A stretch of DNA of 10,367 nt, taken from positions 1 through 10,367 of the forward strand of contig JACPQY010000022.1 of the NCBI GenBank assembly GCA_016190245.1, written 5' to 3'. Below, one piece after another: positions 66-10,059 of the stretch (within the stretch, counting starts at the first letter, position 1; every line of letters begins with the position of its first letter). Below the pieces are notes generated by a model that searched no databases, had not been told where the DNA came from, and saw nothing but the letters and a program-made list of their open reading frames with translations. This DNA is from Nitrospirota bacterium. GTDB lineage: Bacteria > JACPQY01. The translations under genes and the position numbers were made by a program.

Positions 66-235
66 CCCGTGCTCAGGAAGGCACGGGGCCATGATATGTC
101 GCCGTGCCAAGGACGGCACGGCATGGACCATGGCCTTGATCCTCCCCCGCCAGGGGGGAGGAGGGATCAACACCTCTTCCCTTAATCCGTAGGCAACGAC
201 GGATTTCCCAATCATGGGGGCACACCCGATGGGTG
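65..235. repeat. Run of short hairpins between sbp and cysT
   Basis: Five consecutive inverted repeats fill this stretch. They are CCCCGTGC/GCACGGGG (65-72/81-88), GCCGTGCC/GGCACGGC (101-108/115-122), CCTCCCCC/GGGGGAGG (141-148/154-161), AATCCGT/ACGGATT (184-190/199-205) and CACCC/GGGTG (223-227/231-235). Loops are 3 to 8 nt. The stems differ in sequence, so this is not a direct-repeat array. The run sits inside an operon, between the sulfate-binding protein gene and cysT, and no gene is seen in it. It could be decayed REP-type DNA or mRNA-stabilising structure; the function is inferred only from position. The first hairpin overlaps the alternative cysT starts. Confidence 0.6.
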
Positions 236-244
236 CGTCTTTGC

Positions 245-302
245 CGTAGGGAGCGATTCCGATCGCTCCGTCTTTTCGGACGCATAGGAATGCGTCCCTA
301 CG
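245..302. repeat. REP-like inverted pair (BIME-type element)
   Basis: Two palindromes stand head to head. The first, on the plus strand, is GTAGGGA, arm GCGAT, loop TCCG, arm ATCGC, then TCC (246-269). The second, on the minus strand, is GTAGGGA, arm CGCAT, loop TCCT, arm ATGCG, then TCC (301-278). The 5' GTAG followed by a palindrome, in inverted pairs, is the classic layout of REP elements and BIMEs. The arms differ at several positions yet stay fully paired, so pairing has been conserved. The whole 58-nt unit can also fold with an outer 8-bp stem CGTAGGGA/TCCCTACG and three inner hairpins, leaving no unpaired base at the junction. No REP-associated transposase gene is in the window. Confidence 0.75.
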
Positions 303-346
303 CGACACGGTCGTCTGGCGAAGGATTGGGGATTTCGAAAGCACGC

Positions 347-1366
347 TCAACTCCCCGGCTGGTAGATCAGATCGAAGAGGCCGCCGTCGCTGAAATGCGT
401 TCTCTGCGCCTTCTGCCAGCCGCCGAACACTTCATCGATGGTGAAGAGGTTCAGTTTGGGGAAACGGTCGGCGTTCGCAGCCGCCACGGCGGGATCGCTC
501 GGCCGGTAGAAGTTCCTGGCGGCAATCTGCTGACCTTCCGGCGAGTAGAGGTACTCGAGATATGCCTGGGCCACGGCGCGTGTCCCGTGCCGGTTGACGA
601 CCTTGTCCACGAGACTGACCGTCGGCTCCGCGAGAATGCTGACGGAGGGAACGACCAGTTCGTATTCGCCGGGGTTGAGCTTGCGCGTGATCAGCAGGAG
701 TTCGTTCTCCCAGTTGATCAGCACGTCGCCGATGCGGCGTTCGACGAACGTGGTCGTGGCGCCGCGGGCGCCGGAGTCGAGGACCGGCACGCGCTTGTAG
801 AGCGCGGTCACGTAGTCCTTGGCCCTGAGCTGATCGCCGCCGCTTTTCCGGAGGGCATAGCCCCACGCCGCAAGGTAGTTCCAGCGCGCGACGCCGGAGG
901 TCTTGGGGTTGGGGGAGATGACGGAAACTCCGGGCTTCAGCAGGTCCTCCCAATCCTTGATCCCTTTCGGGTTACCCTTGCGCACCAGGAAGGCCAGCGT
1001 GGACGTGTACGGCGAGCTGTTGTGAGGCAGCCGCTTCTGCCAGTCCTTCGGCAGCAGGCCGGCCTTCTCGTGGATGGCGTCCACGTCATACGCCAGCGCG
1101 AGGGTGACGACGTCCGCTTCGAGGCCGTCTATGACGGACCGCGCCTGCTTGCTCGATCCGCCGTGTGATTGGTTGACGACCACCGTCTGCCCGGTTTTCT
1201 CTTTCCAATACCGGGCGAACGCCGCGTTGAACTCCTGGTAGAGTTCACGGGTCGGGTCATAGGAGACGTTGAGCAGGGTCAGGTCCTTGGCTCCCGCCTC
1301 CGAGGGCTGGAGAAGGATGGACCCGAGAAGAGCGATGAACGCGAGGGCTATGAGTTTGTAAGACAT
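347..1366 (-). CDS. sbp: Periplasmic sulfate-binding protein
   Basis: This is a 339-residue exported solute-binding protein of the Sbp/CysP family, which captures sulfate (or thiosulfate) in the periplasm and delivers it to the CysT/CysW permease. Residues 1 to about 26 form a signal peptide (MSYK, hydrophobic core, then P-S-E-A-G-A). The mature part carries N-V-S-Y-D-P-T-R at 33-40, Q-S-H-G-G-S at 66-71 and N-P-K-T-S-G-V-A-R at 153-161, an exact match to the family signature N-P-K-[ST]-S-G-x-A-R. Length is normal for the family. The chosen ATG at 1366 has AAGGAG at 1375-1380 eight bases upstream; an in-frame ATG at 1390 lies before this site and overlaps the porin stop codon, so it is rejected. 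The gene follows the porin by 20 bp and precedes cysT. Sulfate versus thiosulfate preference cannot be told. Confidence 0.93.
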
Positions 1367-1386
1367 GGTTGTTTCTCCTTTGGTGT

Positions 1387-2763
1387 TCAAAACGCGACTT
1401 GGAAGCGGTTCAAGACAATCTTCTCCGCCTCACGGTCTTGTCCCCCCTGAGAAAAGCGGGTTTGCTCGTAGTCGAGGGAGACTTTGATGTTCTTGTTGAG
1501 GTGCCAGTTCAGGCCGCTGCCCACGGCGATGGCGGTCCGGGCGGACTTGGCCGACTGGGCGTAGTCCGGGAAGGCGTCAGTATCCGCGCGTAGGAAACCG
1601 TACCGAGTGGCGAGTTCGAGCGCGCCCCAGCCCCCGCCGGACTCGAAGGGGCGCTTGACCTTCACGCCCTTGAAGGAGGCATCGTCGCCCGTGAGGACGT
1701 AGGACGCGACGACCTGGAAGGCGTCGTTTTTCAGGTTCGCCCGCTTGTCGCCTTTCTTCACCTTCTGGGCCGAGGCGGCGTACTCGGCCAAAACGCCCAG
1801 AGGACCCTTGTAGAAGTACCCCTGCGGCGAGTACCGTGTGCGAGTCCCTGCGGCCACCACGGTGCCCGCCGATGTCTTGTCCTTGTCGGCGGCGTAGGTG
1901 AAGAAGGTTTGCTGGCCGGGCGACTTGAACGACGGCAGGTTTGGAGAGTCGGGCTTCCCCTGTTGATTGCCGTAGGTCACGGACCCGCCGATGCCAAGGC
2001 CCTGCAGCGACCAGACCTCCGTGTTCTTGAACGGGAAGGCGAAGATGCGGGCAGCGAGATCCTTCTCGTCGTTGGTGTCGCCGTCGCCGCTCGCGCCGTC
2101 CGGAACACCGTTGAATGCCCCCAGGGCCAGGTTCACTGAACCGTTCAGCAGATCTCCCGAAAGTTGGAGACCTACGTCGCGGTTGGGCAGGATACTCGTT
2201 GGGAAGCCCCGCTCGACGAAGATGAGGTCCGTCCCCGACTGGAGCCGTTCCAGCCCGGCCGGCGTCTTGAACTTCCCGGCCCGGAGTCTCAGTGCCGGGT
2301 TGATTGCCGCGTCCAGGTATGCCTCCTGGAGCACGGCCTTGCCCTCGCCGAAATCGGACAGGATGCGGAAGTCGAACGACTTCGCGACCGTTCCCTCGAA
2401 GCTCGGGCGCACGCGCCGGAGCAGGAGGGAATCCGTGGATGTCTTCTTGTCATCCGACAGATAGAACCGCGCGTCGGACTGGAGGTACCCGCGCAGCTTG
2501 AACTGATAGGCGCCATCCCACGACTTGAGGAAGAATCCGTCCTTCCCCGCGCCAAGGACGGGCGACTCTTTCGCCTTTGCAGCGTTTTCCTGATCAACCT
2601 CCCAGCGCCGTTCGAGGATCCGGACCTTCTGGTCCAGTTCCTCGATGCGATCTTGCTGGGAGGGGCTCTTGGCTTCGGGCTCCGCCGCTGGAGCGGAGGG
2701 AACGCCTCCCAAGGCCGCGCCGATCAGAAGCACGGCTGAAACGGACGATCGTACAATCCACAT
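1387..2763 (-). CDS. Outer-membrane porin, phosphate-selective O/P (OprO/OprP-like) type
   Basis: The 458-residue product has a signal peptide (residues 1 to about 27, ending P-A-A) and a predicted coiled coil at about 36-62 ([16 protein letters not shown]). A long beta-rich barrel follows: [14 protein letters not shown] near 88-101, then [13 protein letters not shown] and [11 protein letters not shown], with terminal Phe (F-Q-V-A-F), the usual outer-membrane assembly signal. This order of coiled coil and barrel is that of the Porin_O_P family. The start ATG at 2763 has AAGGAG at 2773-2778. Its place between DUF2292 and the sulfate-binding protein suggests it passes sulfate or a related oxyanion across the outer membrane; the ion is inferred from context only. 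Confidence 0.88.
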
Positions 2764-2876
2764 GGTCTTCTTCTCCTTCCGACATGCGGATCTCCGGTCG
2801 TCCGGTCGCCCGATGCGATGTTTCGACGGATACGCCTCCGGTTTTCCGGTGGGATCGTTTTTTCATTGGATGGGCG

Positions 2877-3089
2877 CTACTCTTGGGAGAGGCGCGTCCG
2901 CTCGTGCCGTTCGATCTGGGTCACATGTCCCTGATGGAAGGTAAGCACGACGCTGCCAAAATCCAGATTGCGGGCCGCGCGCTCGATCTGTTCCCAGGGG
3001 AGATCGAGAATCAGCTTGAAGACCCGGCTGCCGGATGGGACCGGCTGAATCGGGACATCCTGTTGCGCTGCTGCTGCTCTATGCGACAT
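2877..3089 (-). CDS. Small DUF2292/YezD-family protein
   Basis: This 70-residue protein has the family pattern in its second half: W-E-Q-I-E-R-A-A-R-N-L-D-F-G-S-V-V-L-T-F at 32-51, then H-Q-G-H-V-T-Q-I-E-R at 52-61 and a basic-aromatic tail. YezD/DUF2292 proteins are short, have no signal peptide and have no established biochemical role. My recollection is that they often lie beside sulfate or cysteine genes, which fits here. The start ATG at 3089 has a perfect AGGAGG at 3098-3103 with an 8-bp spacer. It is the first gene of the operon after the Cys-rich leader, so it would be the first target of any attenuation. The first 24 residues are not conserved in any way I recognise. Confidence 0.8.
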   Translation of the reverse strand: MSHRAAAAQQDVPIQPVPSGSRVFKLILDLPWEQIERAARNLDFGSVVLTFHQGHVTQIERHERTRLSQE

Positions 3090-3144
3090 GGGTCAAACCT
3101 CCTGATTGAACGCACCTCTGGAAAATGCTTTCGCGTTGGGGATC

Positions 3145-3199
3145 GGGACCACCTGACCGGAAGGTATCCGGTCAATTGCAGATAGGGTGGCCCCTATCT
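3145..3199 (-). promoter_or_regulatory. Attenuator-like leader RNA with competing stems
   Basis: Downstream of the leader Cys codons the RNA can form hairpin A, AGATAGGG-GCCA-CCCTATCT (3199 to 3180), whose 5' arm contains the leader stop codon. It can also form hairpin B, TGACCGG/CCGGTCA (3174 to 3154). A third pairing, GGGGCCACC (3194-3186) with GGTGGTCCC (3153-3145), nine pairs with one G-U, would break hairpin A and stack on hairpin B. Mutually exclusive stems beside a regulatory codon run are what attenuators need. No clear U-rich terminator was seen, so the output could be translational. Hairpin A is strong; the long pairing could be chance. Confidence 0.5.
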
Positions 3200-3292
3200 A
3201 CAGATGCAGCAGCAGAAAGTGGAGGGACGAGTCACAGACGGATTCAGGGAAGAACCGCCGAGGGTTGTTGAAGCCTCATGCTTGTGACCCAT
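3194..3292 (-). CDS. Cys-rich leader peptide, putative cysteine-responsive uORF
   Basis: A 32-codon ORF begins with ATG at 3292 and ends F-C-C-C-I-C-R-stop, with Cys codons TGC TGC TGC at 3214-3206 and TGT at 3202-3200. Four of its last six residues are Cys. The ATG lies seven bases after a -10 element, so transcription should start at or within a base or two of it and the ORF would be leaderless; it has no Shine-Dalgarno sequence. It ends 105 bp before the DUF2292 start. Leaderless poly-Cys ORFs that act as cysteine-responsive attenuators are known in mycobacteria; here the same logic would sit before a sulfate-uptake operon in a Gram-negative. A shorter start at an in-frame GTG (3235) is possible. 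The function is inferred; the Cys run and location are directly seen. Confidence 0.62.
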   Translation of the reverse strand: MGHKHEASTTLGGSSLNPSVTRPSTFCCCICR

Positions 3293-3299
3293 GCGCGGC

Positions 3300-3328
3300 A
3301 CTGTAGGCTGCCGGTCGCCGCTTGTCAA
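3300..3328 (-). promoter_or_regulatory. Sigma70-type promoter of the sulfate operon
   Basis: On the minus strand TTGACA (3328-3323, a perfect -35) is followed after exactly 17 bp by TACAGT (3305-3300, four of six matches to the -10 consensus). It lies in the short gap after the ATPase stop codon at 3351. The expected start of transcription, about 3292-3294, coincides with the leader ATG, leaving a transcript of about 200 nt ahead of the DUF2292 gene. Confidence 0.6.
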
Positions 3329-3350
3329 GTCGAGGTCGGCCGCACGGCGG

Positions 3351-4517
3351 TCAGCGCCTTTCAGCGAGTTCGCGGAACAGAGATAGGTACGGGAGAACCT
3401 GCACGCTGGGATCGAAGACTTGGGTGTCGGCCCCACGGTAGGCCACCAACCGTGCCACGGGCTTGTAGCGTCCCACCGCCTCGGCCAAGGATGCCAGCCC
3501 TCTCAAGTCGGGCGGCCTCACGGTTCGGCCCGACTTGATTTCGATCCCGATGATTTCACGCTCCGTTTCGATCACCAGGTCCACTTCGGCCCCGCCCTCG
3601 GTCCGATAGGAAGACAGGGCCCACTCCTTCCGGAGGGCGCGGTTCAGGCAGGCGACCTGGGAGATCATCCACTGTTCGAACGCGGGTCCGAAGCGGTCCG
3701 GTCCGGGGCTCTCGCGGTGGAGCCCGAGCAGGGCGTTGCGCACGCCGAGGTCGAAGAACACGAAACGGTCGCGCTGGGGGAGCCGCCGACTCTTCCGAAG
3801 CCGCGGGTGAAATGGGGGAAGGCGGAAGATCAGGAGCGTATCCTCGAGAATGCCGAAAAAGCGGCGAATGGTCTCCTTCGGTATCTCGGCATCAGAGGCA
3901 AGCTTCGAGTAGTTGATCCACTCACCACTGGTCAGGGCGGCGGTATCGAGGAATCGGGCGTAGCCACCGATCTGACGAGTCAGGGCTTCCGCGCGTATCT
4001 CCTCGCGCAGGTACACTTCGGCGTAGCTGCCAAGCACGTCCACGCCTTCCCGTTCGTCAAGGTACACCCCGGGGAGCGTGCCGACCTGGAGCGCCCGGTC
4101 CAGCCGGAACTCCGGGCCGATTTCGAGCGCGGAAAGCGCGTCGAGGTGTTCGAGTATGATCCTGCCCGGCAGGAGGTTGGCTTGGCCTCGGCGGAGCTTC
4201 CGCGCGCTCGATCCGGTCAGGAGGAATCGGGGGCCCCCTTGCCGGTCCACGATCGACTGCACGACGTTGAGGAGAGACGGAACCCGCTGAATCTCGTCGA
4301 CGCACACGAGGCGGGCTCTCGGCGCCCCCTCAACGAGGCGGCGGAGCGCCGCGGGATCCTTGGCGTACCGCAGGTATTCCCCTTCGTCCGCGAGATCGAG
4401 GAGAAGGTCGGGACGGAGAGAGCGGCACAACGTGGACTTGCCCGTCTGGCGAGGACCGAGGATGAGCGTGCTTCGGCGTGAGGAGGCCAGGCGGGGCCGA
4501 ATCAGCCTGTCTATCAT
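3351..4517 (-). CDS. AAA_14/DUF4143 ATP-binding protein
   Basis: This 388-residue protein has an N-terminal P-loop ATPase domain: Walker A G-P-R-Q-T-G-K-S-T at 21-29, Walker B L-V-C-V-D-E-I-Q at 70-77, and a sensor segment L-L-T-G-S-S-A-R-K-L at 99-108. A winged-helix-like middle part follows, around 199-235. The C-terminal DUF4143 domain carries E-V-D-L-V-I-E at 311-317 and I-E-I-K-S-G at 325-330, resembling a PD-(D/E)xK nuclease fold. Proteins of this family are very common in bacteria and archaea, usually as solitary genes, and their role is unknown; links to toxin-like or defence functions are speculative. Length and motifs look intact. It has its own promoter and an inverted repeat at its start. 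No antitoxin-like partner is evident. Confidence 0.9.
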   Translation of the reverse strand: MIDRLIRPRLASSRRSTLILGPRQTGKSTLCRSLRPDLLLDLADEGEYLRYAKDPAALRRLVEGAPRARLVCVDEIQRVPSLLNVVQSIVDRQGGPRFLLTGSSARKLRRGQANLLPGRIILEHLDALSALEIGPEFRLDRALQVGTLPGVYLDEREGVDVLGSYAEVYLREEIRAEALTRQIGGYARFLDTAALTSGEWINYSKLASDAEIPKETIRRFFGILEDTLLIFRLPPFHPRLRKSRRLPQRDRFVFFDLGVRNALLGLHRESPGPDRFGPAFEQWMISQVACLNRALRKEWALSSYRTEGGAEVDLVIETEREIIGIEIKSGRTVRPPDLRGLASLAEAVGRYKPVARLVAYRGADTQVFDPSVQVLPYLSLFRELAERR

Positions 4518-8069: not shown

Positions 8070-8489
8070 TTGAGGGGTGTGTTCCCCATCAATCCGACCA
8101 AAGAGAAGGCGCTGATCGAGCGGATGGAAAGGCTCGGGGTGCGGGAGCAGGATCTTGAAGAGTCCTTTGTGGCCTCCTCGGGGCCGGGTGGACAGCATGT
8201 GAACAGGGCGGCCACCTGCGTTCTTCTCGTTCATCGGCCCAGCGGGATCAGCGTCCGTTGTCAGCAAGAACGGTCTCAAGCCCTGAACCGATTTCTGGCG
8301 CGCCGACTTCTTCTGGACAAGATCGAAGCGCGGATCCTCGGGAGGCAGTCGGAGGAGGCGCAACGCGTGGCCAAGCTTCGCCGGCAGAAGCGGCGGCGAT
8401 CCAGGCGCGCGCGAGAGAAAATGCTTCGCGACAAGCATCTCCATTCCGCCAAGAAGGCGCTTCGGCGGAGCGCGGGTCTTGAGGATTGA
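8070..8489 (+). CDS. GGQ-domain peptide-release factor, ribosome-rescue type (ArfB/C12orf65-like)
   Basis: The product of at most 139 residues contains only the RF-1 catalytic domain: S-S-G-P-G-G-Q-H-V-N-R at 36-46 carries the universal GGQ motif (40-42) that hydrolyses peptidyl-tRNA. There is no codon-recognition domain. The tail after about 90 is very basic (R-R-Q-K-R-R-R-S-R-R), as in ArfB/ICT1 and C12orf65 proteins, whose tails enter the empty mRNA channel of stalled ribosomes. It therefore most likely frees stalled ribosomes. The start may be TTG at 8070 or the in-frame GTG at 8079; GAGGGG lies too close to the GTG for a normal Shine-Dalgarno spacing. It is divergent from the glycosyltransferase gene. 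Confidence 0.82.
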   Translation: MRGVFPINPTKEKALIERMERLGVREQDLEESFVASSGPGGQHVNRAATCVLLVHRPSGISVRCQQERSQALNRFLARRLLLDKIEARILGRQSEEAQRVAKLRRQKRRRSRRAREKMLRDKHLHSAKKALRRSAGLED

Positions 8490-8518: not shown

Positions 8519-8588
8519 CGGACACAGAGGGGGAACGTGGGAATTATTGGAATCCTTCAGTCGACAGTCTTCAACAGGAGGTGAAAAA

Positions 8589-9200
8589 ATGAGAAAGGCA
8601 ATCGCAGGGTTTCTCTTTGCCCTGGTCGCATCCTTCGTCGCGCTCGCGGCGCAGCCCGCCTGGGCCGCCACGACCTACAAGGTGGACAAGTCGCATTCGA
8701 GCGTGGGATTCGTGATCGGCCACCTCGTCATTGCGGAGGTGGAGGGCCGTTTCGACTCCTTCGAGGGGACGATCGTATTTGACGAGGCGGATCCGACCAA
8801 GTCGTCGGTCCAAGCCACGGCTCAAACGAACAGCATCAATACCAACGAACCGGACCGAGACAAGCATTTGCGCTCGGCGGACTTTCTCGATGTCGAGAAG
8901 TTCCCCACCATGACGTTCAAGAGCTCCAAGGTGGTCCCGGCGAAGGACGGGAAGACGGGGAAGATCCATGGAACGCTGGAGCTGCACGGGGTGAAGAAGG
9001 AGGTCGTTTTGGACACGGTGTTCAAGGGGAAGACGACCGATCCCTGGGGCAATCAGAAGGCCGTGTTCGAGGCCACGGGCAAGATCAATCGGGGGGACTT
9101 CGGCCTGAAATGGAACAAGGTTCTCGATGCGGGCGGCCTGCTCGTGGGGGAGGAAGTTACGATCAAGCTGAAGGTGGAGGCGATCGCGCAGAAATCGTAG
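8589..9200 (+). CDS. Exported YceI-family protein
   Basis: This 203-residue protein has a clear signal peptide (M-R-K, hydrophobic core, cleavage after A-W-A at 26) and then the YceI lipocalin-like barrel. Seen are T-Y-K-V-D-K-S-H-S-S-V-G-F near 29-41, the middle L-R-S-A-D-F-L-D-V-E-K-F-P-T-M-T-F-K-S segment, H-G-V-K-K-E-V, and R-G-D-F-G-L-K-W near the end. YceI proteins bind isoprenoid or other amphiphilic molecules in the periplasm and are often linked to stress or respiratory-chain genes; the exact role is unknown. The ATG at 8589 has a perfect AGGAGG at 8576-8581. An intrinsic terminator follows 21 bp after the stop, so it is likely a single-gene unit, or the last gene of a unit with the release factor. 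Confidence 0.93.
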   Translation: MRKAIAGFLFALVASFVALAAQPAWAATTYKVDKSHSSVGFVIGHLVIAEVEGRFDSFEGTIVFDEADPTKSSVQATAQTNSINTNEPDRDKHLRSADFLDVEKFPTMTFKSSKVVPAKDGKTGKIHGTLELHGVKKEVVLDTVFKGKTTDPWGNQKAVFEATGKINRGDFGLKWNKVLDAGGLLVGEEVTIKLKVEAIAQKS

Positions 9201-9221
9201 CTTGTCGGAAGAAGCCTTCTT

Positions 9222-9257
9222 GCCGCCCTCGCGAGGCACCCGAGGGCGGCTTGCTTT
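9222..9257 (+). terminator. Intrinsic terminator after the YceI gene
   Basis: A perfect 10-bp stem GCCGCCCTCG/CGAGGGCGGC (9222-9231/9241-9250) with a 9-nt loop is followed by TTGCTTT. It lies 21 bp after the YceI stop codon and before the start chosen for the cytochrome gene. Confidence 0.8.
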
Positions 9258-9294
9258 CGACGGGACGAGGGCGGATGATCCGCGCGGATTTTCC

Positions 9295-10059
9295 GTGAAG
9301 ATCCTCTCGCGCTGCCTCTGGTTGTGTGGTGTCGGCATGGTGTTGGCCTTGCCCGTCGCGGCACGGGCCGTCGGCGGTGGCGATCTGGAAAGGGGCCGTG
9401 AGGTCTACCGGCAGTTCTGCCGCGCCTGTCACGGCGACGCGGGAGATGGAAAGGGGCCGGCCGCCGAACTCCTGAACACGCCACCGCGCGATTTCCAGCG
9501 GGCGGTCTTCAAGTTCCGAAGTACTCCCTCCGGGCATCTCCCTACGAGAGAGGATCTTGAGCGGACCATTGCTTTCGGCATACCTAAAACGGCCATGCCG
9601 AGTTGGAAGAGCCTCCCCACCCGGGATATCCGTGCTGTGGCCGACTTCATCCGGTCGTTTTCCCCTCGGTGGGTGAGCGAACCGCCGGTTTCGGCTGTGC
9701 CTCTTCCGAAAACGCCGGGCGACATCGCGTCGCAAGCGGCCGTGCTGCGCGGTGAGGAGGCGTACCGGGCCGCCGGCTGCTGGGAGTGTCATGGCGGTCC
9801 CGCCGGCAAGGGGGCGGAGGGCGGGGCCTACCCCTGGGGCGAGGGACCCAAGGCGGCGGAGCTCCGGGATGACCAAGGCCGACCCTCGTCCGCCTACGAC
9901 TTGAGGGGGGACTATTTCAAAGGAGGCAGCCGACCCGAGGATATCTTCCGCACACTCACCACCGGCATGGATGGCACGCCCATGCCCTCGTACGCAGACT
10001 CACTCTCCGAGCGCCAACGGTGGGACCTCGTGGCGTACCTCATCTCGCTTGGGCGGTAG
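9295..10059 (+). CDS. Exported dihaem c-type cytochrome
   Basis: The product is 254 residues. A signal peptide (residues 1 to about 25, ending A-A-R-A) precedes two class I cytochrome c domains. The first has C42-R-A-C-H46 with likely axial Met M101 (T-A-M-P-S-W); the second has C162-W-E-C-H166 with M230 (T-P-M-P-S-Y). Both haems therefore appear His/Met ligated, suited to periplasmic electron transfer. The partner is unknown; YceI genes are sometimes found near cytochromes. The frame is open back to 9202, but that would place a terminator inside the gene, so the GTG at 9295, followed by K-I-L and a hydrophobic core, is chosen. Its Shine-Dalgarno sequence is poor. A 13-bp palindrome GCGGATGATCCGC at 9271-9283 lies just upstream and could be an operator. 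Confidence 0.88.
   Translation: MKILSRCLWLCGVGMVLALPVAARAVGGGDLERGREVYRQFCRACHGDAGDGKGPAAELLNTPPRDFQRAVFKFRSTPSGHLPTREDLERTIAFGIPKTAMPSWKSLPTRDIRAVADFIRSFSPRWVSEPPVSAVPLPKTPGDIASQAAVLRGEEAYRAAGCWECHGGPAGKGAEGGAYPWGEGPKAAELRDDQGRPSSAYDLRGDYFKGGSRPEDIFRTLTTGMDGTPMPSYADSLSERQRWDLVAYLISLGR

Follow-up and report, generated by a model that had tools for sequence, protein, structure and literature searches.

The leader upstream of a sulfate-uptake operon in a Nitrospirota genome is likely a cysteine-responsive, ribosome-mediated attenuator, in which the Cys codons of a short open reading frame (sORF) are predicted to pair with the beginning of the structural gene that comes first in the operon. The window, i.e., the whole stretch of DNA analyzed here (10,367 nt), is an entire contig of a 3.3-Mb draft genome, and the operon encodes a DUF2292 (OscA-like) small protein, an outer-membrane porin, Sbp, and CysTWA. 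Based on modeled RNA pairing, control would probably be exerted at the level of translation. A cysteine-sensing attenuator ahead of the sulfate-uptake genes had been proposed in a sequence-only reading of this DNA, and comparison with other genomes now lends this proposal support at the sequence level, although one of its RNA elements, the alternative stem, is not universal, and the leader is patchy in occurrence. Two genomes recur throughout this comparison: G001, the one other genome of the window's phylum in the comparison set (same family, other genus), and G352, which belongs to a different phylum. The promoter and coding features of the leader are the following:

3300–3328, minus strand: sigma-70-type promoter TTGACA-17-TACAGT, with the −35 box at 3328–3323 and the −10 box at 3305–3300.
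3292 (ATG) to 3194 (TAG), minus strand: leader sORF of 32 codons (MGHKHEASTTLGGSSLNPSVTRPSTFCCCICR, then stop), identified by ORF reading and by the corresponding sORFs in G001 and G352.
3200–3214, minus strand: regulatory codons Cys Cys Cys Ile Cys, with Cys at 3214–3206 and 3202–3200; the same place holds CCRCIC in G001 and CCSCIC in G352.

The 32-codon ORF, its Cys-rich end, and a good promoter ahead of the operon had all been noticed in the sequence-only reading, and all were recovered on the minus strand within a few bases of where they had been placed. The promoter displays 10/12 matches and is the sole promoter-like site across 2700–3500 in a promoter scan (shuffles mean 0.2), and the peptide C-terminus reads F-C-C-C-I-C-R-stop. 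Such a Cys run had been judged very unlikely to arise by chance, and ORFs with ≥4 Cys in their final 8 codons were indeed absent from 200 dinucleotide shuffles of the window, as well as from a further 72 kb (strand-nt) sampled elsewhere in the same genome. An NCBIfam search with the leader peptides returned no match. Since the ATG lies 7 nt past the end of the −10 box, i.e., approximately at the expected transcription start, promoter geometry suggests that the sORF is probably leaderless, which adds to the earlier reading, where the ATG position was not mentioned. Further upstream, an AAA_14/DUF4143 ATPase gene (3351–4517, minus strand) has its stop ~23 nt before the −35 box of the leader promoter.

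Downstream of the leader, the following features were identified:

3098–3103, minus strand: Shine-Dalgarno (SD) sequence AGGAGG of the DUF2292 gene, read from the sequence.
2877–3089, minus strand: gene for DUF2292 (OscA-like small protein), the first structural gene (PF10055, 47 bits; NF033785 OscA, 36 bits, under its cut-off of 85).
1387–2763, minus strand: gene for an outer-membrane porin (profile match to PF07396).
347–1390, minus strand: sbp, sulfate ABC transporter substrate-binding protein (TIGR00971, 500 bits; NF008022, 535 bits).
3–92 (92–3), minus strand: start of cysT, first ~30 residues (MAPCLPEHGVGGKRRVLPGFRLTLGFTLAY), truncated by the contig end; the full cysT-cysW-cysA is found in G001.

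The original placement of the sORF ahead of DUF2292-porin-sbp-cysT holds by PF10055, PF07396, and TIGR00971, with cysT partial at the contig end, and G001 carries the same gene order (DUF2292-porin-sbp-cysT-cysW-cysA) as far as the window's contig reaches. Because sbp and cysT abut in G001, the 255-nt gap between them in the window (92–346, minus strand), which is dense in inverted repeats (fold z = −4.8), resembles an inserted repeat element. Elsewhere in the window, positions 8070–8489 (plus strand) encode a PrfH/RF1/ArfB-like protein of 139 aa (under NCBIfam cut-offs) that carries the release-factor motif GPGGQHVN and is, from its sequence, a candidate small stand-alone ribosome-rescue factor. 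A two-domain cytochrome c (Cytochrome_CBB3 + Cytochrom_C) is encoded at 9202–10059 (plus strand), adjoining a YceI family protein gene (8547–9200).

When the leader upstream regions of related genomes were compared, as the sequence-only reading had suggested, G001 proved to retain the Cys codons, a hairpin over the stop codon, an alternative stem, and the operon. Its sORF spans 34 codons (MNRQSVNRIETASSPMPRPVHFSSSLFCCRCICR, then stop), ends FCCRCICR-stop, and follows a promoter (TTGACA-17-TACAAG, ATG 9 nt later) that was read by eye and falls below the promoter-scan threshold. In the otherwise diverged leader, a 21-nt block over the stop and hairpin (ATCTGTAGATAGGGGCCACCC) is identical between the window and G001, and the leader motif is single-copy in both genomes. 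This comparison could be extended to another phylum, with one leader found among the upstream regions of 30 sulfate-SBP loci: in G352, TTGACT-17-GATAGT is followed 9 nt later by the ATG of a 38-codon sORF (MSQLPTSVDLGYSFSKTDVRAFSKKSSLSLLCCSCICR, then stop) ending in LLCCSCICR-stop, with TGCATCTGTAGATAGGGACTTCCCTGTCT over the stop and the same stop hairpin. This leader stands directly ahead of sbp-cysT-cysW-cysA, and the G352 locus is without DUF2292, porin, and alternative stem. Common to the window, G001, and G352 are thus the peptide end CC-x-C-I-C-R-stop with the stop hairpin TGYATCTGTAGATAGGG, a −10 to ATG distance of 7–9 nt, and a frame that stays open through to the Cys run across 32–38 codons of diverged sequence. 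Clear members number three, two of them from one family, and pair covariation is thin.

The RNA structures predicted around the stop codon are the following:

3177–3202, minus strand: stop hairpin of 11 bp with a loop of 4 (3202–3192 with 3187–3177), covering the end of the sORF from its last Cys codon through Arg to the UAG stop.
3186–3194, minus strand: 5′ strand of the alternative stem (GGGGCCACC), mutually exclusive with the stop hairpin and not found in G352.
3145–3153, minus strand: 3′ strand of the alternative stem (GGTGGTCCC), identical in G001 and absent in G352.
3154–3174, minus strand: second (inner) hairpin of 8 bp with a loop of 5 (3174–3167 with 3161–3154), enclosed by the alternative stem.

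The stop hairpin, which had been read as 8 bp (3199–3180), is present and extends over 11 bp, while the nine-pair alternative stem (3194–3186 with 3153–3145) was read correctly and also encloses the second hairpin. The two elements proposed to compete are both conserved in G001, but the alternative stem is missing in G352, so that it is not shared by all members. The two folds lie within 3–4 kcal/mol of one another both in the window (hairpin state −32.5, alternative state −29.8 kcal/mol) and in G001 (−32.4 and −28.2 kcal/mol). For positions 3216–3136, none of 200 shuffles was equally stable (fold z = −5.2), and the fold z-scores obtained in all were −5.2, −3.5, and −2.4. The stop hairpin measures 11 bp in the window, 12 bp in G001, and 8 bp plus 6 outer bp in G352; its 5′ arm is identical among members, and substitutions in the 3′ arm preserve pairing (U-A to U-G). 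The inner hairpin is also 8 bp in G001, where most pairs differ on both sides (compensating changes), and the spacing to GGTGGTCCC is 33 nt in G001 versus 32 nt in the window. We infer that the alternative stem and second hairpin, kept within the phylum, probably tune the switch.

Nucleotide conservation that peaks in the hairpin (21 identical nt), along with the fold z-scores, would also suit a non-coding regulatory RNA, protein- or ligand-binding, to which the Cys ORF is incidental. We regard this as extremely unlikely, and as the least probable of the explanations weighed here: an Rfam covariance-model search of the leader (T-box, other leaders) gave no match and chance-level scores only, three genomes share the open frame and the Cys codons although their upstream sequences and lengths differ, and sbp is preceded in further lineages by poly-Cys sORFs of unrelated sequence (see below). 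Another explanation is that the Cys-rich nascent peptide is itself the sensor (of metal, redox, or sulfide), arrest being caused by peptide chemistry and not by a lack of Cys-tRNA. Copper-sensing translated uORFs are known (PMC9973294, PMC9426467), and the C-terminal CICR is identical in the three genomes; however, this identical part doubles as one strand of the stop hairpin (its 5′ arm), so that RNA structure accounts for its conservation, and one Cys is swapped for Arg or Ser among members. Given in addition that the peptide has no hydrophobic export segment, and that the operon serves sulfate uptake, not metal handling, a peptide sensor appears very unlikely.

For a ribosome-mediated attenuator, modeling of the leader RNA points to a switch that is absent from the sequence-only reading and appears better supported than a terminator, namely base-pairing between the run of Cys codons and the beginning of the DUF2292 gene:

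3202–3215, minus strand: Cys-codon strand, pairing with the DUF2292 start (13 pairs, one bulged A; duplex −24.7 kcal/mol).
3068–3080, minus strand: target of the Cys-codon strand, DUF2292 codons 4–8 (+10 to +22), as predicted when the entire leader is folded.

This was the third output model tried, after negative tests of SD pairing and SD-only accessibility. The best partner for SD sequestration by the leader lay +40/+41 nt past the stop (G001, G352) and was not better than shuffles (P = 0.44, 0.13, 0.09), and the SD-only accessibility profile by ribosome position revealed no switch. No intrinsic terminator was found in the leaders of the window, G001, or G352. In the predicted whole-leader fold of the window, CUGCUGCUGC-(A)-UCU (3215–3202) pairs with AGAGCAGCAGCAG (3080–3068), with a duplex energy lower than that of 99.8% of same-genome windows. 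In G001, CUGCCGCU is predicted to pair with AGCGGCAG at +6 to +13, the pairing of the Cys run spanning +6 to +17. The Arg codon CGC that G001 has instead of Cys finds its counterpart in a GCG codon of DUF2292, but pairing registers differ between the window and G001, so that this match is not strict column covariation. For G285, a further genome with a poly-Cys sORF before sbp, GUGCUGCUGU is predicted to pair with ACGGCAGCAC just ahead of the SD. Ranked against 55-nt windows of their own genome, these duplexes reached P = 0.0024 for the window, 0.12 for G001, and 0.09 for G285, compared to 0.90 for G352 and 0.91 for G324 (another such genome); in G352, neither duplex ranking nor the ribosome model showed Cys-run/gene-start pairing.

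With a modeled ribosome on the Cys codons (its footprint limits of −15/+12 being an assumption of the opening-cost model), the cost of opening positions −20 to +16 falls from 16.6 to ~11.5 kcal/mol in the window and from 29.0 to ~15.5 kcal/mol in G001. When the ribosome is placed at the stop, the cost returns to 23.5 kcal/mol in G001, and the initiation site of the window remains open, so that repression in the latter would need ribosome release. The opening gain from the stalled ribosome, 4.7 kcal/mol in the window and 12.3 kcal/mol in G001, is matched by 2/120 and 0/120 other gene starts swapped in, respectively, which favors translational attenuation with the Cys codons as an anti-initiation strand.

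The same cysteine-sensing leader could alternatively act on transcription, with the speed of the ribosome exposing or hiding a Rho-binding region past the stop, and Rho terminating when cysteine is plentiful. Such an output is consistent with the lack of an intrinsic terminator, with the mutually exclusive stop hairpin and alternative stem, and with the presence of Rho in all three genomes, and Rho has been proposed for actinobacterial cys leaders (PMC1262725). Nevertheless, the ~105 nt from the stop to DUF2292 are mostly folded and lack a clear C-rich, G-poor composition, no rut-like tract conserved between the window and G001 was seen by eye, and the gene-start pairing favors translation, making a Rho-based output unlikely.

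In the translational attenuator that we favor, transcription would start at or beside the ATG of the 32-codon sORF, as promoter geometry suggests, and ribosomes would reach the Cys codon run just ahead of a stop codon enclosed in a stable hairpin. With ample cysteinyl-tRNA, the ribosome would pass and leave, and the stop hairpin would re-form; with the ribosome gone, the Cys-codon strand is predicted to pair with the first DUF2292 codons, closing the initiation site. If cysteinyl-tRNA runs low, a ribosome would stall on the Cys codons and cover this strand, and the initiation site is predicted to open. Expression of the remaining operon genes may then rise through translational coupling or because Rho-dependent polarity is relieved.

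Operon and Cys ORF are kept together in G001, whereas two other genomes keep sulfate-uptake genes without the leader, which makes the element patchy in occurrence: G397, a member of the G352 family whose Sbp is 70% identical, has no such leader in the 440 nt upstream examined, nor was one found in G151, which carries DUF2292 and sbp. The G397 locus without Cys leader (L097, G397:C65) displays a long inverted repeat upstream of sbp (CTCTTGAAATAAGAGGGG...CCCCTTATTTCAAGAG). Among the 27 sulfate-SBP loci where sbp could be the first gene, a sense poly-Cys sORF was detected just upstream of sbp in three and an antisense one in none (0.2–0.4 expected from shuffles). These are the sORFs of G352, G324 (ending RCVPCCSACLR-stop), and G285 (ending RPACCCT-stop), the latter two unrelated in sequence. 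In G285 (L056, G285:C139, ~1325, minus strand), the sORF is SD-led, ends SARPACCCT-stop just before sbp, and is associated with a 14-bp hairpin starting at the stop codon; a 10-bp pairing is predicted between its Cys codons and the sequence adjoining the sbp SD, and from this modeled pairing the leader looks like an independent cysteine attenuator. No second sbp was found in the class of G285 (two genomes). The G324 sORF (FFRCVPCCSACLR, then stop; L050, G324:C6, 1153–1330, plus strand) ends ~32 nt before sbp and is a possible further Cys leader, for which no hairpin or pairing evidence was found.

Pattern searches returned chance matches only beyond the three members when the core was allowed 1–3 mismatches in two family genomes and several hundred others, weak matches only for the 17-nt core in plasmids, and six matches for this core in viral contigs, none with a Cys run. 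The full alternative-stem pattern (TAGGGGCCACC...GGTGGTCCC) matched genome contigs seven times without poly-Cys frames, which was judged to be chance. For the core-pattern searches, chance level corresponded approximately to a reversed-pattern control, and genome sets overlapped between searches. A DUF2292 protein scan across genome contigs found no relatives, and no convincing poly-Cys leader was seen at the PAPS-reductase loci of the window genome, G001, and G352.

Poly-Cys attenuators are known in mycobacteria, as the sequence-only reading had correctly stated (PMC1262725, PMC4633059; Canestrari 2020 as cited in PMC9031893 and PMC13236596). These leaderless sORFs (Shell 2015, PMC4633059; Canestrari 2020) are described as exerting translation-level control, and uORF-downstream pairing is given as the general scheme for such systems (PMC4633059; PMC9031893 and PMC13236596). 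Similarly, the leader described here includes a short ORF that heads a sulfur/cysteine operon and has several Cys codons in a row close to its end, and in silico, in the window and G001, a strand of the sORF pairs with the next start and is freed from it by a stalled ribosome; judging by promoter spacing, the ORF would probably be leaderless. Unlike the mycobacterial sORFs, it occurs in other phyla, would control sulfate import in an operon with a Gram-negative-type porin, and has its stop inside a conserved hairpin (TGYATCTGTAGATAGGG), to which the window's phylum adds an alternative stem. Cys leader peptides have also been described before cys operons in Mycobacterium and P. acnes, and before cbs in B. 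longum (Seliverstov 2005, PMC1262725); these share Cys runs near the stop codon and the lack of terminators, but display no conserved terminator-capable hairpins, whereas hairpins are conserved here in two genomes and partly in the third. The LEU element of actinobacterial leuA (PMC1262725) pairs a regulatory codon run with the region where translation of the next gene begins, as is predicted here, yet differs in amino acid, sequence, and phylum, the predicted target here being codons 4–8 (+6 to +17 in G001) and not the SD. Finally, a leader peptide with regulatory codons and mutually exclusive hairpins is shared with the classical trp-type attenuator, although here there is no terminator hairpin and U-run between leader and first gene. 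Taken together, the models suggest a mode of action like that of the mycobacterial attenuators, here in a Gram-negative-type lineage.

In the Gram-negatives that have been studied well, control of sulfate uptake is attributed to CysB-type activators. Attenuation by cysteine is known from actinobacteria (PMC1262725, PMC4633059), and reports of it come so far mainly from mycobacteria and related bacteria. The leaders reported here may represent a conserved cysteine-attenuator module (CC-x-C-I-C-R-stop over TGYATCTGTAGATAGGG) that governs sulfate import in at least two phyla outside actinobacteria, and, together with the unrelated poly-Cys sORFs before sbp, may indicate that cysteine attenuation of sulfate uptake is a widespread and repeatedly evolved strategy in which Cys codons close the start of the next gene, a generalization that we see as evenly balanced between holding and failing. 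The combination of TGYATCTGTAGATAGGG and a Cys run provides a searchable motif for finding further members. If this reading is true, the charging of Cys-tRNA could directly determine sulfur supply in little-sampled phyla, with no regulator protein involved.
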